Shown: piece by piece, positions 13,100 to 27,334 of the stretch
Position numbering within the stretch: the stretch's first letter is position 1
How the letters are laid out: each line of letters opens with the position of its first letter
Origin: Phycisphaerae bacterium
Lineage (GTDB): Bacteria; Planctomycetota; Phycisphaerae; UBA1845; PWPN01
Assembly (NCBI GenBank): GCA_012729395.1
Contig: JAAYDF010000159.1
Location: 1-32,051, forward strand
Direction of reading: 5' to 3'
Length of the DNA: 32,051 nt
Notes under the pieces: model-generated
Database searches by the model: none
What the model saw: only the letters and a program-made list of their open reading frames with translations
What the model was told of the DNA's origin: nothing
Program-made: the position numbers and the translations under genes

Positions 13100-16000
13100 T
13101 CAATTGCCCGCTGCCATATCCGAAGTCACCAAGTCGGGGAAGTTCTCCCGCTCGAGTTCCTGGCGGATGATGATCGACGGCTTGATCAGGATGAGCAGCA
13201 CGTATTCATCCTTGGTCCGCGAGCGGTTGGTGAAGGCCCGCTTGAGAATGGGGATCTTACTGACCACGGGCACGCCGGCCTCGATTTCCTCTTCGGCGGC
13301 CAGTCTCAGCCCGCCCAGCAGCAGCGTGCCTCCGTCAGGCACGTAGGCCTGCGTGCGGACCGTGGTGATCTGGTACTCGGGGGTCTGGAAGTAAGCGGCC
13401 AGGGCTCCCGACTGAACTGGGATTGTCCGCAGGGTCACGTCGGTGACCGTCGGCTGGATGTACATTTTGACATAGCGGCGGTCGGACGAGATCTGCGGGT
13501 AGACCCACAGCTTACGGCCTCGCGGGAGGTTTCGGACATCGGGGGTGACGGCCGCGGAGGCCTGTCCACCCGTGCCGGTCCCAGATTGGCCTGCCGCACC
13601 GGGCGAAGCAACGTAGGCGATGTATGTACGGATTTCGATCTCGCCCGGCTCGTTATCAACGAGGACGATTCGGGGGGCATCCACACTGGAGCCCCGCGAG
13701 TCCATTTGCGTAGCCCGAAGGAGGAAATCGACCTGGAAGTTATCGAGGAACCCGCCGAAGAGCGAGAATGCCGGCCCAACCTCGGAGAAGGAGTCGGCCA
13801 AATTGCCGGGGACGCTGGTGCGCCGGGGGCCGGCCAAACCGAGGGTGTTGTTAACCAGGGGGACGGGGGTGCTGTGCCGGCTCCAGTAGTTGGACGGCGA
13901 GCCCTGCGGAACAAGGGCCACGTTGCCGTACGGCTGCTCGAGGGTGACCGTCGAGGTCAGGGGCACCCCACCGATGGCGGGCACCGCCGGGGTGACGCCG
14001 ATCTGGCCGAACTGCCGGGGCATGAGGAGCTGGGCGCCGGTCCGTGGATCCAGCACGGGATAGCCGCCCTGAGTGAGGGCCTGGTCCATCCCGGCATTGG
14101 CGCTGTTGAGCACCACATCGAGATCGACGCCGATCTCCTCGAGGAAGTTGCTTCTGAGGGTCAGGAAACGGGCTTCGATGGCGACTTGGTCGTCTCCTGA
14201 AGTATCCCGGAAGGTCTCGAGCATCGCGGCAATTTCTCGGTGCACGGCGGCGGTGTGGTGCACGATCATCTTGTCCTGCCACACCTTGAGCGAACCGGGG
14301 ACACCGTCGGGCGCCCACGTCCCCGGGGCGATGTTCTGAGTGATGAACTCCTCGAGTTCCTGGGTTAACCGCTCGCGCTCCTCCTTCTTGTCGAAGTCAA
14401 GCTCGTCACGGCTGGAGCTGCTGCTACTGCTGCTGCCGCCGCCGCCGTACGACCCACCGCCGGTGCCGCCGCCGCCGCCCATGTTGTTCAGCATCTCCAT
14501 ATCGTCGTCCTCGGTTGGAGGCGGGACGCTGGGCAGCTCACGGAGCAGGTCGCCGACCTTGTAGATCTCCGTTTGGGTGTTGCGGTTGAGGTCCTCACGG
14601 CTCGACACGCGGACTACGCCCTTGATGATGTCGTAGGCCAGAACCACGTCCAGGCCGCCGACGTTCTGCAGCACGATATCCAAGGCCGTTTCGCCGGCGG
14701 TGTCTCGCAGGCTGATTCCACCGGTGTTGCTGGTGCGGTCGATCCCCAACTGCTCGAGGAGAACCCAGTTGACCACGATGGATACCTTGGTGTTCTCCTG
14801 GAGGAAATCGATGGCCTCGCCAAAGCCTGACCCATCGGGGAATTCCACCACGGCGATAGGCACCCGAAGCCGCTCGCGAGTCCGCTGGTTCTCGTCGCCT
14901 TCCTGACTGAGGCCCACGCCATAGGGGTCGCGGTTAACGATCATGCGCCAGGCGGCCTCATCGGGGTAGGCGACAAAGCGGTCTTCGGCACCGACGGTTT
15001 CGGGGGTACGGGTCTTCTCGATGGAGAGGAAGGCTTCCTGCATGCGGTCGAGGAAGACCTTACGGTTTTCTTCCTGGTTGTGAACGATCGCGGCATCCTC
15101 GATCATGCGCAGGACGAACTGGGCGTTCTGGTTGGACGGGTCGATAGCGATGATCTCACGGAGAACATTGGCCGCCTTGGCGTACTCGCGCTCCTTCTGG
15201 AGCTGCATGACCTGATCCATGAGTTGCCCGATGCGCTCGTCTTTTTCTTTGATGACCGCTTCTTGGCGCTCGCGTTCTCGGGCCATGGCGTCCATACGTT
15301 GCTCGGCGGTTTGCTCCTGCTGAAAGCCCGCCTCCTCGCCGTCGATGAGTCGGACGAGCGAATCGACCTGCCGAGCCAGGAACGCATACCGTTCCGGCGG
15401 CTCGGCATCGCGGCGTCCGGCCTCCAGGAGCTGCCGAGCGAGATCCAGTCTTTGCCGGGCGGCGGCGTACTCATGCTCAGTGATCAACTGGCGAACCGCC
15501 TGCTCATGCTCTCGATAGAGGGTTTCCGTACGGATCCAGCGACCCTGGCGACGCTGGAGAGAGTCGGTCAGCAGGTCCGGGCGACCCTCGACCTGGCGGT
15601 GCTGGCGGACCAGCTCCAGACCGTTGAGGGCCTGCGGGTGGCCTGGCGTGTACTTGAGGGCCTCTTGGAACTTGGCGTAGGCGACGTCGTACTGAGCGGC
15701 AGCCATGGCGGCATCGCCGGCCTTGATCAGGTCGTCGGCCATAGCCCGGTTGCGTTCGGCGCGAGCCTGGCTGTACTGGTCAGAAGCGGGCGCCGAGGCC
15801 GGCGTAGCGACAGGCGCCACCGGCTCGGAGACGGCGGGAGCGGGGGCGGGAGCGGGAGCGGTCGCCGCGATACGGCGATCGAGTTCTCGCTTCTTGTCGA
15901 CGGACGCCAAGCCTTCGCGAGCCTGCTGTTTCTGGGCCGGCGAGGCGAAGTCGTTGTCCATGACGGCGTGGTAGAATCCCTCCGCCGCTTCGTTTTCGCC

Positions 16001-16291
16001 GGCAGAGAACGCTTTGTCGGCGTCCGCCAGATTCTGCCGAGCTTTGTTGGACTGATGAATCGCGATCCGCACTTGCTCGATCAGCTCGTCGCGCTTTTGC
16101 TTCTCGTCCGCGGTCAACTGATCGCGATCGAGCTCCAGGAGGAGCGCTTGGGCCTGTTGGTACGCCTGCTCACCGTATAAACGGGCTGCTTCATCGAGTT
16201 TCTCGGATGCCAGTGCGGGGGCGGAAATAAGCAACAGCACCGCCCCAACCGTCATGACCGACCGTCGCCACAGATTGCGACCAACTTTCAC
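13100..16291 (-). CDS. Secretin (PilQ/GspD family) with N-terminal TPR-like region
   Basis: A 1063-aa outer-membrane channel protein for a type IV pilus or type II secretion-like machine. A signal peptide (VGAVLLLISAPALA, residues ~16-28) is followed by a long helical region with TPR-like repeats and a charged coiled coil near 330-370. Around 477-570 is an STN/secretin N-like domain (AIDFLQENTKVSIVVNWVLLEQLGI...). A Gly/Ser-rich linker with an eight-serine run (near 620) precedes the secretin core. The C terminus has VPDGGTLLLGGL (about 980) and GVPVVSKIPILKRAFTNRSRTKDEYVLLILIKP, the secretin signature. The start is GTG 16291 with a strong GAAGGAGG site. It is long for the family because of the N-terminal helical extension. 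It is the last of four genes in pilM-N-O-P-Q order. No separate pilotin gene is seen. Confidence 0.92.
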   Translation of the reverse strand: MKVGRNLWRRSVMTVGAVLLLISAPALASEKLDEAARLYGEQAYQQAQALLLELDRDQLTADEKQKRDELIEQVRIAIHQSNKARQNLADADKAFSAGENEAAEGFYHAVMDNDFASPAQKQQAREGLASVDKKRELDRRIAATAPAPAPAPAVSEPVAPVATPASAPASDQYSQARAERNRAMADDLIKAGDAAMAAAQYDVAYAKFQEALKYTPGHPQALNGLELVRQHRQVEGRPDLLTDSLQRRQGRWIRTETLYREHEQAVRQLITEHEYAAARQRLDLARQLLEAGRRDAEPPERYAFLARQVDSLVRLIDGEEAGFQQEQTAEQRMDAMARERERQEAVIKEKDERIGQLMDQVMQLQKEREYAKAANVLREIIAIDPSNQNAQFVLRMIEDAAIVHNQEENRKVFLDRMQEAFLSIEKTRTPETVGAEDRFVAYPDEAAWRMIVNRDPYGVGLSQEGDENQRTRERLRVPIAVVEFPDGSGFGEAIDFLQENTKVSIVVNWVLLEQLGIDRTSNTGGISLRDTAGETALDIVLQNVGGLDVVLAYDIIKGVVRVSSREDLNRNTQTEIYKVGDLLRELPSVPPPTEDDDMEMLNNMGGGGGTGGGSYGGGGSSSSSSSSRDELDFDKKEERERLTQELEEFITQNIAPGTWAPDGVPGSLKVWQDKMIVHHTAAVHREIAAMLETFRDTSGDDQVAIEARFLTLRSNFLEEIGVDLDVVLNSANAGMDQALTQGGYPVLDPRTGAQLLMPRQFGQIGVTPAVPAIGGVPLTSTVTLEQPYGNVALVPQGSPSNYWSRHSTPVPLVNNTLGLAGPRRTSVPGNLADSFSEVGPAFSLFGGFLDNFQVDFLLRATQMDSRGSSVDAPRIVLVDNEPGEIEIRTYIAYVASPGAAGQSGTGTGGQASAAVTPDVRNLPRGRKLWVYPQISSDRRYVKMYIQPTVTDVTLRTIPVQSGALAAYFQTPEYQITTVRTQAYVPDGGTLLLGGLRLAAEEEIEAGVPVVSKIPILKRAFTNRSRTKDEYVLLILIKPSIIIRQELERENFPDLVTSDMAAGN

Positions 16292-16459
16292 GGAAGGCCT
16301 CCTTCGAGCCCACCCGCTCTACAGCGCGGGCGAGGTAGGGTTCTTGCCGCTCAACAGGCAGGACCGCAGACCACCGGCAGGATCACGGCCGATCCTCCAC
16401 CAACGGTGGCCCCAAAGCTTACCGCAGGACCGCCCCGGATGCCAGTCCCAGAGAGCAGC

Positions 16460-18508
16460 CTATATTTCTCCGGGGCCCGAAGGACCGCCCCGCGGGAACC
16501 TTCCCCGTGGTGCGAAATCGCGGCTGGGCAGCCGAGGCTGTACGCCAGGACGGATCTGGCCCGCCGGACCTTCATCAAGCTGCTCGCGGAGTGCCTGCTC
16601 CTTCTTGATCTGGGACAACAGATCCCGTTTCAGAACGGCATCCCGGGCAACCACGTGCTCGGCGACATCCCCGTCGGCGGTCAGCAGGATCGCAGCGGCG
16701 GTCTGACGCTCGCGATAACTGATCGCTCCATCCCGTCCGACGCTCCGTTCCTGGTAGGTGTACTGGTCGTTCACGCCGGCGACAATCGCCCCGTAGACGA
16801 ACTCGTCGCCTCCGGTCGAGAACGCGGCCAACTCACCCACTTGGCGGTCGCCAAAGCCCATCTTCCACTCGCCCCGCACCCATTCCCGGATTTCCAGCGT
16901 GGCCGTATTGGCATTCGCCGCCTTGGTGATAAACAAATAACGCACCGGCTGGACCTGGACTGGATCGGACCATTCGGACCATTCGCCGGCCAGGGTCACT
17001 TTGCCGGCATCGTCGGCATTCTCCAGTCGGTTGGCCAACCCAACGTACTGGTTGAAAACCAACAGCCGAACCCGGTACCGATACGTCTTGCCCGGGATGA
17101 TCCGCAAATCGGTCAGCCAGAAGGGATCCACGTCCTCGCCGACATCCTGCTCGCCAGCCAAGCGGCGTCGCTCCTCGGCCAGGAAGAGTTCCCGCTCGGC
17201 ACGATCCACGTCCTGCTGGATCCGGAGGAGCCGCGATTGGGCGTCCTCGACCTGCTTCGAGCTGGCATCAGGATTCTGGATCACCTGCTCAAGCAGATCC
17301 CGGGCCTGGATGAACTCCTGCTTGGTGATGGCTTCGTCCGCTTCACGGAATAGCCGGGTAATCTCGGCCCGTCCGGCGCGGGCAGCGGGAGCATCGCCCG
17401 GCGACGGCGTGACGGAAGCTCGGGGGGCCACGGGAGGAGCGCCATCAGGACCGGGGAAACGGCCCCGGCCGCCCCCAAAATCGCGACCGGTCGTTCGCCG
17501 CGACGGGGTCGCCGTCCGCGGAGCGGCCGTCGGCTCGACTGTCCGACGCGGGGTGGGCCCCTCATCCTCCGTCGGCAGCATCGCCCCGTAATCCGCCAAT
17601 TGCACCGACAACCCGGGCAACTGCTTGGGCACCTCCCAGGCGAACCAGCGATTCTCGAGGAACTCCTGGAACTGCGGCCGCAGGATTTCCTCCTGCCCGG
17701 CAGGGGAATCGAGTAGCGTCAGGTAATCCTGGATGTACTGACGGTCCGCGTCCAGAATGGCATAGGTGCCGTCGTCCTGGCGGTGCAACGGTACGGTCGC
17801 CCGGACGGGGATCTTGCGGGGGGAGTAACCGGTGACCATTTCGGGCTCGCTCCATGCGCCCGTCGGCAGGAGTACCTGACGCTCAGCCTCAACGACGGCC
17901 ACGAGCAGTTTCTGCCGATCGGGGGCATAGCGGACCCGCTCAAACTCATCACGCTGTTCTTTGCGATGGACCGCTGAGAAGAGAGCGACCCAGTGGTACT
18001 CCTGAGTGATTGGGGGAGGGGGTTGCACGTCACCCCCCGTACTGCCCGGACGAACCAGAATGGAGTCCGGGAGCCGAGCAAAGGCCCTACCCACCGTGGC
18101 CACCAGCGGGCGCGGGGGCAGGATCTTAGCCAACTGAATGCTGTCCGGCCGGTCCTCATCCGCAATACTGGGGATATCCGGGGCCGGCGGCACGAAAGCC
18201 ACCGTGAACTCCTTGGGCAGCCCCAGGTAGTCGTATGGGCTGCGCTGTTGGTTGATGTCCGGGACTTTGATGCCCGCACTGGGGTTGATATCCAACTGAC
18301 CCTGCTGCATGGTAGCCCGAGCCTGCTCCGCCCGCGTACGCATCTCGGTGTAGAACTGGTCGGGCCCCAGCTTGCGACCATCGACCTCAACGGCGTTCGG
18401 ACTCCCCACGACGTAGAGGACGAAGATGACCAAGACAACCGCGCCGGCCGCCCCGATGATGATCTTCTCGAGGTGCCGCTCGATCATTGTGACATTTTGC
18501 TTAGCCAT
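16460..18508 (-). CDS. PilP-position inner-membrane protein with fibronectin-like domain
   Basis: A 682-aa protein with one N-terminal membrane helix (IIIGAAGAVVLVIFVLYVVG, ~16-35); the rest should be periplasmic. Its first part (to ~320) matches no family I know. A Pro/Arg/Gly-rich linker (~325-395) follows, then a helical segment (EITRLFREADEAITKQEFIQARDLLEQVI) resembling a TPR. Near 470-520 is a beta-rich domain reading GKTYRYRVRLLVFNQYVG...GEWSEWSDPVQV, a fibronectin type III-like pattern with a perfect WSEWS. The C-terminal third is also beta-rich and ends in a Gly/Arg/Pro tail. Starting at ATG 18508 is favoured by GGGAG upstream; a TTG at 18523 is an alternative. Its place between the PilO-like and secretin genes suggests it bridges the inner-membrane platform and the secretin, as PilP or GspC does, but no PilP homology is visible. 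Confidence 0.8.
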   Translation of the reverse strand: MAKQNVTMIERHLEKIIIGAAGAVVLVIFVLYVVGSPNAVEVDGRKLGPDQFYTEMRTRAEQARATMQQGQLDINPSAGIKVPDINQQRSPYDYLGLPKEFTVAFVPPAPDIPSIADEDRPDSIQLAKILPPRPLVATVGRAFARLPDSILVRPGSTGGDVQPPPPITQEYHWVALFSAVHRKEQRDEFERVRYAPDRQKLLVAVVEAERQVLLPTGAWSEPEMVTGYSPRKIPVRATVPLHRQDDGTYAILDADRQYIQDYLTLLDSPAGQEEILRPQFQEFLENRWFAWEVPKQLPGLSVQLADYGAMLPTEDEGPTPRRTVEPTAAPRTATPSRRTTGRDFGGGRGRFPGPDGAPPVAPRASVTPSPGDAPAARAGRAEITRLFREADEAITKQEFIQARDLLEQVIQNPDASSKQVEDAQSRLLRIQQDVDRAERELFLAEERRRLAGEQDVGEDVDPFWLTDLRIIPGKTYRYRVRLLVFNQYVGLANRLENADDAGKVTLAGEWSEWSDPVQVQPVRYLFITKAANANTATLEIREWVRGEWKMGFGDRQVGELAAFSTGGDEFVYGAIVAGVNDQYTYQERSVGRDGAISYRERQTAAAILLTADGDVAEHVVARDAVLKRDLLSQIKKEQALREQLDEGPAGQIRPGVQPRLPSRDFAPRGRFPRGGPSGPGEI

Positions 18509-18666
18509 ATCCGGCTCTCCCAAGAGCCCGCCTCACGACTTCTGTGTCACCGGCCTACCCGCCATGGCGGATACCTAGCCGGCCACGCTTCAGAAACCGT
18601 GGACAGGCGGCAAATCAACCTGAGCCCATCGGAGCCCGCGGCCGCAAAGACCGCCGCGGGATTCAC

Positions 18667-19995
18667 TCAAATCTCCCCATCCGGGACACCCCCTCGCATC
18701 TGGGGCCTCATGGGTCGGCTGCGGCTCGGCATGCCCCGATCGCCGCCACCGCCGACCGAGGTGCCCTGAGCGGTCCCCAAGGGGATCGCCTGAGCCACCG
18801 CGTCGGGCATCCATTCTTTGTACTTGGCCCGCAGGAAACAGCCCTCAAAATCCAACTGCACATTGATCACCGGAGCGGGCCCGTAGAGATAGCCAACCAA
18901 GTCCGGGTTATGAGGTTCCTCGGCGAAGGTCACCAGCAGCGGGGTATAGAAGCCGGGCACGCAAATCGCGTCAATGACGGCGGGCAATTTGCGGGCGTCC
19001 ACGACCAGCCCCAACGAGAAGTGGATCACGTCCACACTATCGGTGCTACCGCGTTGGGTGAAGACCTCGGTAGCAGCGCCGCCGGATCCAAATCCTCGGC
19101 CTGTCTCAGTAGCACCCTGGGGCGGCAGGTAGCCGCCCACGTTGAACCGCTGGAGGTGCTTGACGGGCAGGTTTCCTACCCAGGGATGCTCGCCCCGGCC
19201 TTGAAGCTCCTCGGCGGCGGCCTTGTTGAGGCTCGCCAGCGCCTGAATCACATCTTGCTGAATCCAGAGGGCCATCTGGGCGTACCACATCTCCTCCACG
19301 GTCGGACGATCGACGCCCGAGACGGCGGGCCGCTGGTCCAGGTTATACTCGCTGGCATAGCAGTAGATGGCTTGTGCTCTCATGATGCTGACACGAACCA
19401 TCGCGTCCTCGCGAGCGAGCTCCTCCGGGGACAAGTTTGCGCGCGTCGTGTCGCGACCTCCGGGGCCGGGTCCTGGACCGGCCAGCTGGCGACCAGGGGT
19501 GAGCCCGGGCTGGGGTCGTTCCTCAACGCCCCGGCCAAGGTCACTCATCCGCTCCGCCCTCAAGCGTTGGATCTCCAGGTTACGCTCTTCCTGAAGGCGA
19601 TCATCGTCGGACGGAGCGTCCTTGGCGTTGAGCATGGTCAGGAGCTGGCGCTGAGCCTCGGCGAAGGCGTGTTTGAACTGGAACGGGGCGTACTGGTTGG
19701 TGGGTTTGACGCTGGGAAACACGTCCGGGTGCAGTGGCACGTGGGCGCCTAACTTGGCCAGGGCCTCCATGGTCTGCTGGACCTGTTGCTCGTTGTCCTC
19801 GCGGATTCGCTTCAGTTGCTCAATCATCTGCTCGTTGACGGGTGTGAGCGACCGCAAGCGCTGGGCAAGCCCGGCATCCTGGGCCATGACATCCTTCACG
19901 TCAGACAGGACGAAGCCCAAGACGATGAGCACGATGGCCACGAGACTCACCGCCCCGCAGATCACGATGGTCAGATGGGACTTAATCCACTGCAT
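18667..19995 (-). CDS. PilO-like inner-membrane protein
   Basis: A 442-aa protein. One membrane helix near the N terminus (IVICGAVSLVAIVLIVLGFVL, ~10-30) is followed by coiled coil (LAQRLRSLTPVNEQMIEQLKRIREDNEQQVQQTMEAL), then a long variable middle. A C-terminal alpha/beta domain (VDVIHFSLGLVVDARKLPAVIDAI...LVTFAEEP...PVINVQLDFEGCFLRAKYKEWMP) resembles the ferredoxin-like fold of PilO. It is longer than typical PilO (about 200 aa), due to the middle and a Gly/Arg/Pro-rich tail. ATG 19995 follows GGGAGCAGGAA. It comes 46 bases after the PilM-PilN fusion and about 160 before the PilP-position gene. Function as the PilO partner is inferred from architecture and gene order rather than sequence identity. 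Confidence 0.75.
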   Translation of the reverse strand: MQWIKSHLTIVICGAVSLVAIVLIVLGFVLSDVKDVMAQDAGLAQRLRSLTPVNEQMIEQLKRIREDNEQQVQQTMEALAKLGAHVPLHPDVFPSVKPTNQYAPFQFKHAFAEAQRQLLTMLNAKDAPSDDDRLQEERNLEIQRLRAERMSDLGRGVEERPQPGLTPGRQLAGPGPGPGGRDTTRANLSPEELAREDAMVRVSIMRAQAIYCYASEYNLDQRPAVSGVDRPTVEEMWYAQMALWIQQDVIQALASLNKAAAEELQGRGEHPWVGNLPVKHLQRFNVGGYLPPQGATETGRGFGSGGAATEVFTQRGSTDSVDVIHFSLGLVVDARKLPAVIDAICVPGFYTPLLVTFAEEPHNPDLVGYLYGPAPVINVQLDFEGCFLRAKYKEWMPDAVAQAIPLGTAQGTSVGGGGDRGMPSRSRPMRPQMRGGVPDGEI

Positions 19996-20041
19996 GTTCC
20001 TGCTCCCGCCAAAACCGGCCCGGCTGATAGCCCGAGCGGCC

Positions 20042-22213
20042 TTACTGTATCGGTATCTCGTCCAACGACTCCGCTGGCGGCTCCGCGTTCAAGGATCCAT
20101 CCGCCGCAGGCCTGTCGCCGAGGATGGCCACGAAAACGATCTCGAATTCCCAGTCCCGGAGGATGGACTCGCCGGTCACCGGATCCTTATCCTCGCCCAG
20201 ATTGGCGATGGTGGCGATACCGCCATCGGGCCCAGGCCCGCCGATGCCCGGGCTGGAGCTTCGCCTCGGCCCCGCGAAACTGGTGGGCCCGGGCAGTCCG
20301 CCCCGCAGACCTGTGGGCGCTCGTCCGCCACCGCCGCCGAGATCGCGGACCGGCACGCAGCGCACGAGGAACATCTTGTCGAAGTAGAGTCCCTTCTGGC
20401 CCTGGCCCGCCTGCCGCAGACCAGCGATGAAAGTATCGTTGACGAAGGCGGTTCCACGGATCTGGTCGCCGCCGGCGAACGGTGTCCGCCCCACCATGCT
20501 GATCACGAAGCCGCTGATCTGAGGCTGATCGGGGGCGTCACCGGCATCCATCCTGGACATTCGCCCGCCGCTCGTGGTGCCGCCCGGACTTTTCATGGAC
20601 TCATACACGCTCAGCACGTCGGAAGAGTAGACCGCATCCATGCTCTGAATGAAGACCTGTGCCCGCTTGCTCCGCTCGTACTTGTCGGGGTTGCTTTCGA
20701 TGAGATCCTTGTACGGCTGGGGCCCCTTGGCCATCGCGTTGATCAGTTCAGGATCTCTGGCCGGCATGGCCGAGTGGATCATATCGAGGATGCGCGGCCA
20801 GATGACCTTATGGGCCTGAAGGCGTTCGATTTCCTGGGCCTTGCCGATTTGCTCCTGGTTTTCGGATTCGATCCGGGACTTCTCGTCCTGGAGAACCTGG
20901 ACCGCATCGAGGATCTGTTGGGCGTAGAACTTGGGCGGTTGGCTGGCGTCCGGACCGCGGGTCAGGATGGCGGAAGCCGCCTGGGGATCCTGCGGTCTCA
21001 TCGGCGCGGGGAGACCTTTGCCCGTAGCGGTGGCCAAGGCCCGTTGCTCACTGAGATTGACGGTCCAGACCAAGCCGGCCGCAAGGAGCAGACAGGCGGC
21101 CGCGCCGTAGAACCAGGGGGTCTTCTTTCGCCAGATGACTTGTTTGGCGATTTCGGGGGGCAGGAGGTTGCTGGTGATGGGGGCCTGATCGAGTCCCTGC
21201 ACCGCCAGGCCGTAGGCGATCCCGAAGCTGAGCAACTGGTCCATGAGTTGCGGGGCGTTGGGAGCGTTGCTTGCCGACAACCGATTGAAGGTGCTCGGAC
21301 GGACGACCTCCATGCCCATGTTCTGCTGGATAAACTTGGGCATCCCAGGCAGCTTGAAGGCGTTGCCCATGGCCAGGAGCTTGTTGAGCTTAACGCCGCG
21401 ACGCGAGGAGGTGAAAAACCCGATGGATCGCTGCACCTCGGCGACCAGGTCGGCGAAAACCGGTCGCATGGCCTGGAAGATCTGGCGGGCGTATTTGCTG
21501 CTGCTGGCCGACCGCTTGAGGTTCTCCGCTTTGCTGAACGAGAGCTTGAAGGTCTTGAGCAGGGCTTCGGTGAAGTTGTTACCGCCGATGGGGATGTTGC
21601 GCGTCCAGAGGCTGTTGCCGTCCACGACCAGAAGGTCGGTATTCTGGGCGCCGATGTCCAGGATGGCGACGGATTCCTGACCGCAGAGCCCGTCGTAGCG
21701 CAGGGCGTTGTAGAGAGCCAGTGGCGAGGACTGGACAATGGCCGGCTCGAAGTTCAGATCCGAGAGAAACCGCAGGTACTCGCGCATCAGCTCGCGTCGC
21801 ATGGCGAAGATACCCACCTCGGTCTCGGCGGCCTCGGGGTCCTCGAAGATCTGGTAGTCCCAGATGACCTCCTCCATGTCGAAGGGGATCTGCTGCTGGG
21901 CCTCGTATTTGACCAGGTCGGGGATTCGCTTCTTGTTATCGATGGGGGGCAGCTTGGTAAACCGGGCGAGGGTGTGTTGTCCAGGGACGGCGACGACGAT
22001 CCGCTCGTTGGCCAGATCGTGGGCGTCAAGGAACTTCTTCATGGACTCGGCGATGAGGGCTGCCTTGTTCACCTCGGGCTGGGAGAGGATCTTGGAATGC
22101 TCGATGTAAACGTGATCGAGGACCTCCACCTTGTCGCCGGCCGCGCGGACACGGATGGCCTTGAGGGCGCACTGCCCCAGGTCGATGCCCCAGACTGGTT
22201 TGTTGGCCGCCAT
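20042..22213 (-). CDS. PilM-PilN fusion protein (type IV pilus alignment complex)
   Basis: A 723-aa protein. Residues 1-345 are PilM, a cytoplasmic actin-like ATPase: VWGIDLGQCALKAI (7-20), then AILDIGAQNTDLLVVDGN (183-200) as the second phosphate loop, and LLAMGNAFKLPGM for the adenosine region. SNLLPPEI (348-355) is the short segment with which PilN begins and through which it normally binds PilM. Then come a membrane helix (~367-386), coiled coil (AVQVLQDEKSRIESENQEQIGKAQEIERLQAH) and a periplasmic part. Thus two usually separate proteins that bind each other are one chain. The periplasmic part has a Gly/Arg-rich segment and ends in a predicted beta region (DWEFEIVFVAIL). ATG 22213 has an AGGAGG site six bases ahead. 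It is the first gene of the leftward operon. Confidence 0.88.
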   Translation of the reverse strand: MAANKPVWGIDLGQCALKAIRVRAAGDKVEVLDHVYIEHSKILSQPEVNKAALIAESMKKFLDAHDLANERIVVAVPGQHTLARFTKLPPIDNKKRIPDLVKYEAQQQIPFDMEEVIWDYQIFEDPEAAETEVGIFAMRRELMREYLRFLSDLNFEPAIVQSSPLALYNALRYDGLCGQESVAILDIGAQNTDLLVVDGNSLWTRNIPIGGNNFTEALLKTFKLSFSKAENLKRSASSSKYARQIFQAMRPVFADLVAEVQRSIGFFTSSRRGVKLNKLLAMGNAFKLPGMPKFIQQNMGMEVVRPSTFNRLSASNAPNAPQLMDQLLSFGIAYGLAVQGLDQAPITSNLLPPEIAKQVIWRKKTPWFYGAAACLLLAAGLVWTVNLSEQRALATATGKGLPAPMRPQDPQAASAILTRGPDASQPPKFYAQQILDAVQVLQDEKSRIESENQEQIGKAQEIERLQAHKVIWPRILDMIHSAMPARDPELINAMAKGPQPYKDLIESNPDKYERSKRAQVFIQSMDAVYSSDVLSVYESMKSPGGTTSGGRMSRMDAGDAPDQPQISGFVISMVGRTPFAGGDQIRGTAFVNDTFIAGLRQAGQGQKGLYFDKMFLVRCVPVRDLGGGGGRAPTGLRGGLPGPTSFAGPRRSSSPGIGGPGPDGGIATIANLGEDKDPVTGESILRDWEFEIVFVAILGDRPAADGSLNAEPPAESLDEIPIQ

Positions 22214-22688: not shown

Positions 22689-22721
22689 CCACCCAGTGCC
22701 CCTGGAATTCGGATGCACCCC

Positions 22722-22855
22722 GAGCCGGGGACGCAGGTCCTCGAGTTCAAACCGCGAGCCGGGGACGCCAGTCCCCGGGTCAAACCGCGTGCTGGGAGCG
22801 CCAGTCCCCGGGTTCAAACCGCGAGCCGGGGACGAAAGTCCCCGGTTTTGCCCGC
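22722..22855. repeat. Four tandem copies of a 33-34-bp palindromic repeat
   Basis: Copies start at 22722, 22756, 22789 and 22823. The unit reads GAGCCGGGGACG, then NNAGTCCCCGGGTTC, then AAACCGC. Each contains the palindrome GGGGAC-n-GTCCCC, intact in copies two and four and partly decayed in one and three. There are no unique spacers, so this is not a CRISPR array. The GTTCAAACC part imitates a tRNA T-loop but no cloverleaf forms. Confidence 0.85.
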
Positions 22856-22940: not shown

Positions 22941-23423
22941 GTGTACGGGCAACCGGGCATTCAACCTCACGGGCGGGCGGCCTCCGCCTCGGCCTCTCAC
23001 CGCTCCTTCGGGGGTGCGGCTCCCTTCCGCTACCTCATCGCTTGGGCGGCTCCGCTCGGCGTCCTGGTCATCCCCGCGTTGCTGGGTGGTTCTCTGATGT
23101 CGGCCGGTTGCGGGCCTGGCCGAACACCCTACCCACAGGCTTTCCAATCAGACCGGCCCCAGGAACGGGCGGCGGCGGCCAAGTGGGCGGCGGAGCTGGG
23201 TGATCGCGAGGCCATCGGGCCGCTGGTGGATCGGCTGGAGGACCCAGACGAGGCGGTGCGTTTCTACGCGATTCTGGCGTTGGAGAAGCTGACGGGGACA
23301 CGGCGGGGCTACGACTATCGAGCCGCCGAGCGGGATCGCTGGCGGGCGGTCCAGGAATGGCGCCGGCACCTGGCGACCGAGAGTACGGGTGGTGCGGCTT
23401 CCGTCGGAGGAAGCGACCGATGA
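22941..23423 (+). CDS. HEAT-repeat-like protein, possible lipoprotein
   Basis: A 160-aa protein starting at GTG 22941 with AGAGGA upstream. A hydrophobic segment (YLIAWAAPLGVLVIPALLGGSLMSAGC, ~31-57) ends in SAGC, an imperfect lipobox, so it may be an outer- or inner-membrane lipoprotein. The ~30-residue polar stretch before it is long for a signal peptide, so the true start could be further in. The rest (ERAAAAKWAAELGDREAIGPLVDRLEDPDEAVRFYAILALEKLTG) is one to two HEAT-type helical pairs, followed by an aromatic-basic tail (YDYRAAERDRWRAVQEWRRHL). HEAT repeats generally bind proteins. Its stop overlaps the start of the kinase gene by four bases, so the two are translationally coupled. Role in the operon unknown. 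Confidence 0.72.
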   Translation: MYGQPGIQPHGRAASASASHRSFGGAAPFRYLIAWAAPLGVLVIPALLGGSLMSAGCGPGRTPYPQAFQSDRPQERAAAAKWAAELGDREAIGPLVDRLEDPDEAVRFYAILALEKLTGTRRGYDYRAAERDRWRAVQEWRRHLATESTGGAASVGGSDR

Positions 23424-23914
23424 CCCCCGCGGGAAGCAAGCCGGCCGGCGGGCGGGTGATGCTGACCATCAGCAGTGACCCGGTGAGGATGGCGGACGTC
23501 CGGGAAACCGTGCGGCAAGCGGGCCAGCAGATCGGTTTCGTGGATCCTGACTTGGCGTGCCTGGTCCTGGCGGTTGACGAGGCCATTGCCAACGTTATCC
23601 GCCACGGCTATGAAGGTCGGCCGGGACAGCCCATCGAGATTGTCCTGGAACCGATTCGTCGCGAGAGCGGACTCGGGTTGCAGGTGGTCATCTGCGACTG
23701 CGGGCGGCAGGTGGACCCGGCCACGATTGCGGGTCGGGATCTGAACAACGTTCGGCCGGGCGGACTGGGCACGCACATCATCCGGTCGATCATGGATGAG
23801 GTCGAGTACACCTGTCGCGACACGGAGGGGATGCAGCTTCGCATGGTGAAGATGCTCAAACCCCGCGCCGATGGTGAAACGGAGTGCCCGGCGGCCTCCG
23901 TCAAGAAGGAGTGA
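23420..23914 (+). CDS. RsbW/SpoIIAB-type anti-sigma serine kinase
   Basis: A 164-aa protein of the GHKL ATPase class (HATPase_c_2). The N box is VLAVDEAIANVIRHGYEG, carrying the conserved Glu and Asn for Mg-ATP. The G1 region is VVICDCGRQVDP and the G2 region GGLGTHIIRSIMDEVEY. The G1 motif departs from the usual DxGxG (DCGRQ), so activity may differ. Such kinases phosphorylate a STAS protein and hold a sigma factor or other target. The start at ATG 23420 overlaps the previous stop (ATGA) and has GGAGGAAG upstream; a longer frame to 23357 overlaps that gene. The STAS gene follows seven bases later, its likely substrate. No sigma factor gene is seen nearby, so the target may be elsewhere or be the ABC transporter. 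Confidence 0.88.
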   Translation: MTPAGSKPAGGRVMLTISSDPVRMADVRETVRQAGQQIGFVDPDLACLVLAVDEAIANVIRHGYEGRPGQPIEIVLEPIRRESGLGLQVVICDCGRQVDPATIAGRDLNNVRPGGLGTHIIRSIMDEVEYTCRDTEGMQLRMVKMLKPRADGETECPAASVKKE

Positions 23915-23921
23915 GCCGAGG

Positions 23922-24269
23922 ATGACGCAAGTGGACAACACGCTCAACGATATTCGTCGCCAAGGCAACGCCACGATCGTGGCCCTGTCCGGCGAGGTGG
24001 ATCTGCATCGTACGCCGGCGGTGCACAAAACCCTGGTGCAGGCCTGCGAGCAGCATCCGGAGCGACTGGTGGTCAATCTCAAGGACGTGTCGTACATGGA
24101 TTCATCGGGGCTGGGAACGCTGGTGGAGGTTTTCCGACGGGTCAACGGCTACCACGGTACGCTCGCCTTGTGTCACCTGAGTACCCGCGTGCGGAGCGTC
24201 TTTGAGATCACCAAGCTGGACCGGTTCTTCAACATCTACGCGACTGAGGAGGAGGCCCTGTCGGCATGA
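23922..24269 (+). CDS. STAS-domain anti-sigma factor antagonist (SpoIIAA/RsbV-like, possibly MlaB role)
   Basis: A 115-aa single STAS domain. The sequence VVNLKDVSYMDSSGLGTLVEVFRRV carries the phosphorylatable serine, S61 in DSSG, equivalent to the serine modified in SpoIIAA. GEVDLHRTPAVHKTL near residues 24-38 is the typical N-terminal strand-helix. The ATG at 23922 follows a GAGCCGAGG stretch. It lies between its candidate kinase and the MlaE gene, whose start overlaps its stop by four bases. In other bacteria a STAS protein, MlaB, is a subunit of the MlaFEB lipid transporter. This protein could therefore serve a partner switch, the transporter, or both; the position favours a link but the sequence alone cannot decide. 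Confidence 0.9.
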   Translation: MTQVDNTLNDIRRQGNATIVALSGEVDLHRTPAVHKTLVQACEQHPERLVVNLKDVSYMDSSGLGTLVEVFRRVNGYHGTLALCHLSTRVRSVFEITKLDRFFNIYATEEEALSA

Positions 24270-25123
24270 GCGACGCGGCGCCGCCAAGTCGGACGGGTCG
24301 CCTGACCGCGGCGGTCACCGCCTTCGGGCAGATGGGCTACAACGCCCGCCACCGGTTTGTCCGGGATGTGCGTTATCTGGGCGGAGTCGGGTACTTGGTA
24401 GGTGACACGCTCGCCTGGGTGGTGCGTGCCCTGGTCTTTCGTCGGGTGAAGCTTGGGGCGTCGGCGTTGGCGAGCCAGATGGTCCGCGTGGGTGTGCGGA
24501 GCATTCCCATCGTGGTGCTGATCCAGGTGTTCATCGGCATCATCCTGGCGTTGCAGTTGGCTCCGACGCTGGAGGACTACGGCTCGCTGGAGAAGGTCGC
24601 GGACATCATCGGGCTGGCCATGTTCCGCGAGTTGGGCCCGCTGTTGTCGGCGGTGGTACTGAGCGGGTTTGCCGGTGCGTCGATCGCGGCGGAGATCGGC
24701 GCGATGGTCGAGTCGGAGGAGATCAAGGCTCTGCGGGCCCACGCTCTGAATCCGATCCGTTTTCTGGTGGTTCCCCGGCTGCTGGCCACGGTGATCATGA
24801 TGGTCGGCCTGACCGTCGTGGCGGACGTGGTGGGCGTACTCGGTGGACTTTTGACCTCGTGGTTGGTGCTGGACATTCACCCGTGGAGCTATCTGGACAA
24901 TACCCAGGTGGCGCTGTTCTACCGGGACTTCTTCACCGGGCTGGTCAAGGGGGGGGTATTCGGCGTTTTGATTGCCGCGATTGCCTGCTACGAGGGGCTC
25001 AATGTGACCGGCGGCGCGGAGGGTGTCGGCCGGGCGACCACCTCGACGGTGGTCAAATCGATTGTGGCGTTGATCGCCACCGATTGCGTGTTCACCGCGG
25101 TCTTCTTCATCTTCAAATTATGA
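24266..25123 (+). CDS. mlaE: MlaE-type ABC transporter permease
   Basis: A 285-aa membrane protein of the MlaE/YrbE family, the permease of ABC systems moving phospholipids between Gram-negative membranes. The diagnostic segment MFRELGPLLSAVVLSGFAGASIAAEIGAMVESEEIKALRAHALNPIRFLVVPRLLA is intact and contains the coupling helix. Five or so hydrophobic segments are visible, with a longer N-terminal polar and amphipathic part typical of the family. A run of eight G at 24949-24956 lies within the gene. The start overlaps the STAS stop and its own stop overlaps the MlaF start (both ATGA), so translation is coupled along the set. The partner ATPase follows; the MCE partner MlaD is not in the window. 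Confidence 0.93.
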   Translation: MSDAAPPSRTGRLTAAVTAFGQMGYNARHRFVRDVRYLGGVGYLVGDTLAWVVRALVFRRVKLGASALASQMVRVGVRSIPIVVLIQVFIGIILALQLAPTLEDYGSLEKVADIIGLAMFRELGPLLSAVVLSGFAGASIAAEIGAMVESEEIKALRAHALNPIRFLVVPRLLATVIMMVGLTVVADVVGVLGGLLTSWLVLDIHPWSYLDNTQVALFYRDFFTGLVKGGVFGVLIAAIACYEGLNVTGGAEGVGRATTSTVVKSIVALIATDCVFTAVFFIFKL

Positions 25124-26013
25124 GCGGGATGCGTGTCGTGCCCGAGGAGTCGCAGAAGTTCGTCATTTCGGTTCGTCAACTGGCCAAGCTCTTCGCCGAC
25201 CAGCAGGGGCGGCCCGTGCGCGTGCTCGATGACATCACCTTCGATGTGTATCCCGGCGAGACGCTGGTGGTCATGGGGGGCTCGGGCTGCGGCAAGAGCA
25301 CGCTGTTGAACTGCCTGATCGGCGAATTGCGGCCCGAGGAAGGCGGCATCTTCTACCAGACGCGGGTCATGCCCCAGCCGATCAACATCCTCGACGCCCG
25401 CGAGGAGCAGTTGAACGAGGTCCGCAAGCGGTTTGGGATCCTCTTTCAGAGCGGGGCCCTGTTCAACTCGATGACCGTGGCGGAGAACATCGCGTTGCCG
25501 CTCAAGGAGCATTCGTACGTCGACCCGTCGATCATCGACATTGTGGTCACCTTGAAGCTGCAGCAGGTGCACATGCTGCCGCACCGGGACAAGATGCCCG
25601 CTCAGTTATCGGGCGGCCAGAAGAAGCGGGCGGGGCTCGCCCGGGCAACGGCCCTGGACCCGGAGATTCTGTTCTACGACGAGCCGTCGGCGGGGCTGGA
25701 CCCGGTGACCTCGGCGGCCATCGACGAGCTGATCATTGACCTGTCGAAGAAGCTGAGCGTAACCAGCGTGGTGGTGACGCACGAGATGGACTCGGCGTTT
25801 CGCATTGCCGACCGGATGGTGATGCTGGACCGCGGGCGGGTGTTGCGTATCGGCCCGCGCGGCGAGTTTGAGCGGATCCGCGACACCGCGCCCGAGCGGC
25901 TGGCCGACGAGGACGAACGCCTGATCCACCAGTTTCTCAACGGCAAGACCGAGGGCCCGCTGACCGACGCCGCGGGCATGAGCGAATACGAAAAGTGGAT
26001 CGTCACGGGATGA
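25120..26013 (+). CDS. mlaF: MlaF-type ABC transporter ATP-binding protein
   Basis: A 297-aa ATPase that should power MlaE. The Walker A is GGSGCGKST (53-61), the Q loop LFQSGALFNSMTV, the signature LSGGQKKRAGLARA, the Walker B EILFYDEP, and the H loop VVVTHEMD. The SGALFNSMTVAENIALPL stretch and KKRAGLARA are typical of MlaF/Ttg2A subfamily ATPases. A C-terminal extension of ~40 residues (LADEDERLIHQFLNGKTEGPLTDAAGMSEYEKWIV) resembles the part of MlaF that contacts its partner. ATG 25120 overlaps the MlaE stop by four bases; an ATG at 25129 is an alternative. It is the last gene of the operon, with only 43 bases before the convergent DUF4855-like gene. No terminator is obvious in that gap. 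Confidence 0.94.
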   Translation: MSGMRVVPEESQKFVISVRQLAKLFADQQGRPVRVLDDITFDVYPGETLVVMGGSGCGKSTLLNCLIGELRPEEGGIFYQTRVMPQPINILDAREEQLNEVRKRFGILFQSGALFNSMTVAENIALPLKEHSYVDPSIIDIVVTLKLQQVHMLPHRDKMPAQLSGGQKKRAGLARATALDPEILFYDEPSAGLDPVTSAAIDELIIDLSKKLSVTSVVVTHEMDSAFRIADRMVMLDRGRVLRIGPRGEFERIRDTAPERLADEDERLIHQFLNGKTEGPLTDAAGMSEYEKWIVTG

Positions 26014-26056: not shown

Positions 26057-27304
26057 TTATCGCGGCGACGGCGATGCCGCTTGTTTGCGGGCCGCGACGA
26101 ACCGGCACAGGGCATCGTACAGGTCGGCCAGTTCGGGGCGCGTCGCCATCGCGTACACCGCACGGAGGCCCTGGTAGTAACCCGTGGGCTGCCGTAGCCA
26201 CTGATCGTGCTCGGCGGCGATGACCTCGAGGTAGTCGCGCAGCCGTTGACGAGCCGACTCATCCTCGACCAGGCTCTCGTCGCATTCGACCTCCACTCCG
26301 CACGGCACCGAGGCCGCCGCCCGCACGAGCTTGGCCAGATCCTCCCGCGTCTTCTTGTGCCTGGGAAAAAAGTAGTTCGGCTGCACCATGAGATAGTCGA
26401 AGCGCTCCGCCGGCTCGCCGCCCCGCACCAAGTCCTCGACCACGCTCAGCCGTTCCTTCCCGTACGGGCTGTAGGGGATCCAGGTCAACGTGAGCGGTCG
26501 GCCGTCCACGCTGAGCGAGTGCACGTGCCGGACTACTTGCCGCATCAGTCCGACGTCGCTTCGCAGGCGTTCGTCGGCGACCTGGTCGCGCGGCCGCATG
26601 TTCATGTGCGATTCGTTGAACCAGTAGAAACCGAGCAAACGCAGGTGTTTGAACTCGGCCGCGCGCCACCGGGCCAGGGCTTGCTCGATGTACCAGCGAG
26701 CGGCCTGCAGTCGCGGCTCGTCGCTGGAGCGGAAATCCCAGGTCGGCCCGTCCATCGACTCGCCCCAGTCGCTGACGCGCACGTCGGCGTACGGCAGGGT
26801 CAGCACGACTTCGATGCGAATCGGCCGGCCCAGCTTGCGCTCCAGCTCGGCTGCCGTCTGCTCCAGGGCGTCGAGTTGCAGGTTCTTGGCGAAGAGGCGA
26901 TCCAGGCACTCCTCCCAGTCCGGGCGGGTTGTCGGTTTGGCGCTCGCGGATGCCTCGAACATCGCTCCCCGCGAGCTACGGCGGTACATCCACAGGACGG
27001 TGTCGAACAGTGTGTCGACCGGGCGTTCGGCGTCGGTAGCTCGCTGTTCGTGCCGGGCGAGGTAGTGTTTGAGATGCTCGGTCGTCCAGTCTCGCGGGCC
27101 CCTCGAGTCGAAGCCGTAGTAGAGCAGCACCATGTCGGGCGCCGTCGGCCGATCGAGTCGCGGTGGCTCGGCAGCGCCGGCCGACTCACCCCCTGCCATC
27201 AAGCCGCCTGCCAGCAACACGGCAGCCAGGCACCATCTCCACCGCCCCACATTCGCCCCCCTACCAGTAGCACCCGATCCCGCGGCGAAACACGAACGCC
27301 CCAT
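26057..27304 (-). CDS. Secreted DUF4855-like protein
   Basis: A 415-aa protein with a signal peptide (RWCLAAVLLAGGLMAGGESAGAAE). The mature part has the pattern I associate with DUF4855: an N-terminal YYGFDSRGPRDW, a middle DTVLWMYRR...WEECLDRLF, IRIEVVLTLPYADV, then LRLLGFYWFNESHMN, LTWIPYSPYG and FDYLMVQPNYFF. This order suggests a TIM-barrel-like fold of glycoside-hydrolase character, and conserved Glu/Asp residues (NES, GVEVECDESL) could be catalytic. No substrate is known to me. ATG 27304 with GGGAG is chosen over a GTG at 27316. It follows the upstream membrane-protein gene by 30 bases on the same strand, so the two probably form a small operon. Assignment rests on motif memory, hence moderate confidence. 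Confidence 0.75.
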   Translation of the reverse strand: MGRSCFAAGSGATGRGANVGRWRWCLAAVLLAGGLMAGGESAGAAEPPRLDRPTAPDMVLLYYGFDSRGPRDWTTEHLKHYLARHEQRATDAERPVDTLFDTVLWMYRRSSRGAMFEASASAKPTTRPDWEECLDRLFAKNLQLDALEQTAAELERKLGRPIRIEVVLTLPYADVRVSDWGESMDGPTWDFRSSDEPRLQAARWYIEQALARWRAAEFKHLRLLGFYWFNESHMNMRPRDQVADERLRSDVGLMRQVVRHVHSLSVDGRPLTLTWIPYSPYGKERLSVVEDLVRGGEPAERFDYLMVQPNYFFPRHKKTREDLAKLVRAAASVPCGVEVECDESLVEDESARQRLRDYLEVIAAEHDQWLRQPTGYYQGLRAVYAMATRPELADLYDALCRFVAARKQAASPSPR

Positions 27305-27334
27305 GCTTGCTCCCACTTCCCTTGGCTGCCGAAT

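Follow-up and report, generated by a model that had tools for sequence, protein, structure and literature searches.

A kinase and STAS pair of the RsbW-RsbV type encoded with an Mla/MCE-type transporter in Phycisphaerae: a probable dedicated partner-switching module

We analysed a gene cluster in a contig of a Phycisphaerae bacterium (GenBank assembly GCA_012729395.1, contig JAAYDF010000159.1, our C126), whose whole 32,051 nucleotides are referred to here as the window; the genome measures 5.74 Mb and is 99.6% complete. Five + strand genes, overlapping or nearly touching, encode a HEAT-repeat protein, an RsbW/SpoIIAB-type serine kinase, a STAS protein, an MlaE-family permease and an MlaF-type ATPase (Table 1). 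This cluster probably specifies an Mla/MCE-type lipid ATP-binding cassette (ABC) transporter with a dedicated partner-switching module, in which the kinase would act on an MlaB-like STAS protein. At three of the four junctions the genes overlap by ATGA (HEAT/kinase, where the HEAT stop codon overlaps the ATG of the kinase, STAS/MlaE and MlaE/MlaF), and seven bases separate the kinase and STAS genes. A first-pass annotation, made from the letters of the window, had reported the last four genes with their short gap and overlaps, and domain matches and junctions confirm them; the HEAT gene overlapping the kinase start was absent from its gene set.

The co-occurrence of these genes was then surveyed in 61 genomes, namely the window's own and 60 relatives, the named relatives being metagenome-assembled genomes of Phycisphaerae and Planctomycetota. 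A HEAT gene followed by kinase-STAS-MlaE is the common arrangement. Considering the loci with enough upstream sequence, in three sets that overlap one another, the kinase adjoins STAS and MlaE in 34/49 cases among the order relatives, in 49/74 among the named loci and in 19/28 within the class-and-phylum sample. The system occurs across Phycisphaerae, and in the phylum sample the linkage is found also in other classes of Planctomycetota. Because the same order recurs in most relatives, as the first-pass annotation had proposed to check, the linkage is far beyond chance. STAS and HEAT genes without the kinase are present in 13/49 order relatives and 23/74 named loci; the converse, a kinase next to MlaE with STAS missing, was seen at no MlaE locus. 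When kinase presence is mapped onto a maximum-likelihood tree built from 97 MlaE proteins, nine changes are required, and supported branches force at least five of them; this pattern is consistent with an ancestral kinase that was lost repeatedly.

The persistence of STAS beside MlaE despite repeated kinase loss bears on an alternative, according to which the pair works as a classical partner switch on a sigma factor or another regulator encoded elsewhere in the genome, the transporter genes being merely co-transcribed. Indeed, a pure anti-anti-sigma factor needs no such linkage. Furthermore, no sigma factor was found among the open reading frames (ORFs) of the window, in agreement with the first-pass annotation, and clear sigma-70-like ORFs occur in the flanks of about 5 of 80 relatives, three of those loci being kinase-less. 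In favour of this alternative are the similarity of the STAS protein to RsbV and SpoIIAA (see below), two genomes (G050 and G026) in which HEAT-kinase-STAS lies away from MlaE, the displaced STAS keeping its Asp27, and one (G003) whose kinase survives without a window-type MlaE. A kinase-STAS pair next to a sigma factor and away from MlaEF had been named in the first-pass annotation as contradicting a role in transport; by inspection, no recognised sigma factor adjoins the displaced sets (L105 and L106). Overall, we consider a classical switch with a distant client unlikely.

The kinase contains a full-length HATPase_c_2 (GHKL) domain, and its closest solved relative is B. subtilis RsbW (6m36_A, E 4.6e-15, profile A1). 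The residues of the N box, the G1 box and the G2 loop, which like this domain are expected of the RsbW/SpoIIAB type, are all in place. The catalytic N box residues Glu54 and Asn58 are kept in 72/72 homologues, while Arg28 and the G1 box residue Asp93 are each found in 71/72; within the Gly-rich G2 loop (GGLG), Gly114-Gly115 is present in 72/72 and Gly117 in 71/72. The second Gly position of the DxGxG motif is usually Gln. Taken with its family, this intact active site suggests that the kinase would phosphorylate Ser61 of the STAS protein. Other RsbW-type kinases were seen in different settings. In the window's own genome, one lies between two STAS-like ORFs (G000:C137:24500-30500, L050), the first of which reads Ser-Ser-Ala, not Asp-Ser-Ser, at the phosphorylation loop. 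In family f35 (G107:C12, G196:C4, G211:C16 and G253:C26), the arrangement is different: a related kinase is encoded on the strand opposite to MlaE, at a distance of about 3.5 kb.

The STAS protein is nearest by sequence to TM1442, SpoIIAA and RsbV. Its AlphaFold2 model (predicted local distance difference test score, pLDDT, 90.8) has a fifth strand and a final helix, both missing from MlaB (PMC7367683); in a Foldseek search SpoIIAA and RsbV come out on top and MlaB at rank 41. With the curated MlaB family NF033618 the protein scores 17.7 bits, short of the cut-off of 90. The fifth strand, the C-terminal helix and an invariant Asp60-Ser61 assign it to the RsbV/SpoIIAA type, and Asp60-Ser61-Ser62 contains the intact phosphorylatable serine already described in the first-pass annotation. 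A plasmid search with this protein returned distant STAS proteins only.

We next asked whether any STAS residue follows the presence of the kinase, scanning every STAS column in 97 loci, 72 with the kinase and 25 without. In the RsbV-RsbW crystal, RsbW Arg23 hydrogen-bonds RsbV Asp23 and RsbW Glu49 bonds RsbV Ser56 (PMC7340262); the corresponding residues here are Arg28 and Glu54 of the kinase and Asp27 and Ser61 of the STAS protein. Position 27 carries Asp in 72/72 kinase-bearing loci and in 9/25 kinase-less ones; for Ser at position 62 the counts are 72/72 and 15/25, respectively. Columns that are at least 97% conserved with the kinase and relaxed without it amount to 3/10 in STAS, 1/40 in MlaE (a Val/Ile change), 0/62 in MlaF and 0/6 in HEAT. 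On the tree, all six inferred losses of Asp27 map to branches that lack or lose the kinase; such branches account for 20% of the total length (P ~7e-5, uncorrected, the Asp27 column having been picked after all columns were inspected). As a hold-out we used loci outside the tree; most of those fetched duplicated tree loci, and in the ten new ones left Asp27 is present in 9/9 with the kinase and in 0/1 without it (Ala there). Since Asp27 tracks the kinase and the contact residues map onto RsbW-RsbV, binding between the kinase and this STAS protein is very probable.

These results also bear on a second alternative, in which the STAS protein is a permanent structural MlaB-like subunit and the kinase fold, vestigial or acting as an assembly factor, operates no phosphorylation switch. 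Such a role would agree with the retention of STAS in kinase-less loci, with a Ser61 that is invariant either way, and with E. coli MlaB, which works without a known kinase (PMC7367683). On the other hand, the near invariance of Glu54, Asn58, Asp93 and the GGLG loop argues against a degenerate kinase, and Asp27 and Ser62 relax only once the kinase is gone; we therefore regard a purely structural role as improbable.

As for the transporter genes, MlaE and MlaF are encoded together. MlaF is the best NCBIfam match of the ATPase, below the cut-off (174/441 bits), and among PDB structures the ATPase is closest to the Mce1 ATPase (8fed_G) and to MlaF chains. Its C-terminal tail, QFLNGxxxGP, matches QFLDGxxxGP of E. 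coli MlaF and is conserved in the STAS-linked MlaF family, while the STAS-less MlaF paralogue that this genome encodes on C139 and the counterparts of that paralogue in related genomes lack it. The paralogue is part of a second, STAS-less MlaE-MlaF-MCE set (G000:C139:28500-32662, L049). No MlaC-type gene lies between the conserved genes of the cluster; no genome-wide search for MlaA or MlaC was made.

The first-pass annotation had noted the lack of an MlaD gene. This holds for the window itself, in which no gene with an MCE domain was found, but not for the system. In relatives, a divergent MCE protein of about 450 amino acids is encoded directly after MlaF in 36/37 named loci with room for it, and the window's own genome carries the orthologue unlinked, at C184:9650-10984 (E 1.3e-163); this is the MCE gene that the first-pass annotation had left to be located. 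A PF02470 search of the same genome yields one MCE gene, beside the second MlaE on C139, and misses the C184 copy; indeed, Pfam detects the divergent MCE protein in 5/19 members at E 0.1. The profile of the divergent family matches Mce1B (E 1.6e-7). The model of the C184 protein is of moderate confidence, with a pLDDT of 65 for the whole chain and of about 75-90 within the barrel; it combines an MCE barrel with a membrane helix and long helices, and its best Foldseek folds are Mce1 and MlaD. An MCE-less system was therefore rejected. Only one MlaE was found in each of the near-complete genomes of family f9; it lies together with the kinase, and MlaF-MCE is located elsewhere. Because the MCE gene follows MlaF in relatives and is unlinked here, and because f9 splits MlaF-MCE off, the full system is HEAT lipoprotein-kinase-STAS-MlaE-MlaF-MCE, sometimes split in two.

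The HEAT-repeat protein has a hydrophobic stretch followed by Cys57, which is invariant in alignment A4, and its homologue is the first cluster gene in nearly all Phycisphaerae loci. It is probably an extracytoplasmic lipoprotein and a conserved companion of the system; that it serves for sensing or docking is a guess. Its conserved first position would suit a reverse flow of information, whereby STAS would be released or retained depending on the HEAT lipoprotein or on how the transporter is occupied, and the kinase would report the lipid state of the envelope to another target. Partner switches with outputs besides a known sigma factor do exist (SypA/SypE, PMC8256260). However, no other client is visible in the locus, and repeated loss of the kinase with the transporter intact suggests that the kinase serves the transporter, so that a reverse flow appears to have little probability. 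A two-way version, in which STAS would shuttle between kinase and MlaF under the gate of phosphorylation, the HEAT protein would sense the envelope and engagement of the transporter would free the kinase for further targets, is likewise doubtful.

Clustering of the flanking ORFs returned mostly shadow frames, and its useful yield was a recurring flavin adenine dinucleotide (FAD)-dependent oxidoreductase (FAD_binding_3/DAO), present in 18/80 named loci and following the MCE gene where inspected (L159:8200-9297 plus 17 other named loci; L104:2287-3510; L107:2263-3534). The kinase of G003 and that of G024 adjoin this FAD enzyme, away from MlaE. The enzyme is a possible lipid-modifying partner.

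With respect to mechanism, we propose that the STAS protein acts as an MlaB-like accessory subunit of MlaF. The kinase would grip it through the Arg28-Asp27 and Glu54-Ser61 contacts, as RsbW does RsbV, and would phosphorylate Ser61; the modified STAS would be dislodged from MlaF, and MlaEF assembly or ATPase activity would fall. An unlinked PP2C phosphatase might then reset the STAS protein; about six SpoIIE-type phosphatase genes are present in the genome. The divergent MCE protein would be the periplasmic partner. A precedent is offered by E. coli MlaB, whose Thr52, the counterpart of Ser61, lies at the MlaF interface and whose T52E substitution lowers MlaF binding; the structural work on MlaFB proposed STAS phosphorylation at Thr52 without a kinase to test, its authors adding that it is still to be established whether this modification occurs in cells (PMC7367683). 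The putative control of the transporter is favoured by the persistence of STAS beside MlaE after kinase loss, by the MlaF tail and by the Thr52 precedent; phosphorylation that switches an MlaB-like transporter subunit would best explain the data. What the first-pass annotation had proposed, a dedicated kinase acting on the transporter's own STAS, gains support from the gene order kept phylum-wide and from Asp27 being strict only with the kinase; its MCE-less framing does not.

Several observations weigh against this proposal, besides the choice of the Asp27 column after inspection and the kinase that persists in G003. In a strict independent-pairs test of Asp27 the number of pairs was too small for significance. 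The equivalent Asp is also found in E. coli MlaB, which has no dedicated kinase, and in G024 the STAS protein has Thr27 though a similar kinase is encoded on another contig; the G003 and G024 assemblies each have about 6% contamination. Since the STAS protein resembles RsbV/SpoIIAA more than MlaB in both sequence and fold, its interface with MlaF is only inferred. Furthermore, Ser61 is invariant in all 97 loci of the alignment, and because this holds equally without the kinase, its presence is no evidence on phosphorylation either way. The loss of Ser61 in kinase-less loci, considered as a natural experiment, was dropped for the same reason, as Ser61 never varies. Finally, no phosphatase gene is linked to the cluster in the window.

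Table 1. Genes of the cluster and codons of the contact residues, in window coordinates.
Feature	Position	Strand	Evidence
HEAT-repeat lipoprotein-like protein, 160 amino acids from a GTG start	22941..23423	+	PF13646 HEAT_2, E 3e-9
RsbW/SpoIIAB-type serine kinase, 164 amino acids	23420..23914	+	HATPase_c_2 PF13581, E 1.3e-26, positions 1-127 of 127
Kinase Arg28 codon (RsbW Arg23)	23501..23503	+	Alignment to 6m36_A
Kinase Glu54 codon (RsbW Glu49)	23579..23581	+	Alignment to 6m36_A
STAS protein, RsbV/SpoIIAA type, 115 amino acids	23922..24269	+	PF01740, E 1.5e-23
STAS Asp27 codon (RsbV Asp23)	24000..24002	+	Alignment; strict conservation only with kinase present
STAS Ser61 codon (RsbV Ser56, phosphorylated there)	24102..24104	+	Alignment to 6m36_B
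MlaE-family permease, 285 amino acids	24266..25123	+	PF02405, E 3e-70
MlaF-type ATPase, 297 amino acids	25120..26013	+	ABC_tran, E 1.6e-30; best NCBIfam curated relative MlaF

Around the cluster, promoter and terminator scans gave no usable signal beyond chance. Three imperfect GC-rich repeats of about 33 nucleotides are found upstream (22717-22850). Downstream, a - strand gene for a DUF4855 protein (26057-27316, E 1.3e-52) is convergent with MlaF and occupies the place of the relatives' MCE gene. Farther upstream, on the - strand (13100-22213), two large unassigned ORFs separate PilM-like from secretin genes, in a cluster like those for type IV pili or type II secretion.

What is new is a combination of known parts, together with comparative evidence that two of them interact. 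We found no prior report of RsbW together with MlaE, or of this operon, in the full-text literature, most subscription papers lying outside that coverage, and a review of STAS-only proteins (PMC8256260) does not mention Mla. The regulation of Mla/MCE transporters is an open question, which an operon-encoded kinase across much of one phylum makes testable: lineages that lost the kinase provide natural controls, and Asp27, Ser61, Arg28 and Glu54 are defined residues to mutate. Elsewhere, a switch made of a kinase and a small phosphorylatable protein controls gene transcription. If our proposal is true, partner switching would extend from transcription to the direct control of a lipid transporter. 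In addition, the Pfam MlaD and curated MlaB models miss the MCE and STAS proteins described here, so that surveys such as PMC10665443, which used PF02470 and an MlaB model, may undercount such systems.

Among known systems, MlaFEDB of E. coli and other diderms shares with this cluster MlaE, an MlaF with the C-terminal tail, a small STAS protein with an Asp-Ser/Thr motif and an MCE protein. Here, however, the STAS protein is RsbV-like and has 115 amino acids with an extra strand and helix (97 in MlaB), the operon includes a dedicated kinase and a HEAT lipoprotein, the MCE protein is divergent and about 450 amino acids long, and nothing in the cluster corresponds to E. coli mlaC. The RsbW-RsbV and SpoIIAB-SpoIIAA pairs of Bacillus have the same kinase and STAS folds, contact residues, phosphorylatable serine and gene adjacency, whereas no sigma factor is linked here and the neighbours are MlaE and MlaF. 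Mycobacterial Mce1 (8fed) supplies the best PDB match of MlaF, its ATPase, and that of the MCE protein, Mce1B; its complex contains several different MCE subunits, in contrast to the single MCE gene, STAS and kinase of the present system. Finally, in SypA/SypE of Vibrio fischeri a serine kinase also regulates a STAS protein with an output other than a known sigma factor; there the output is biofilm formation, while here it is a transporter that is encoded beside the pair.

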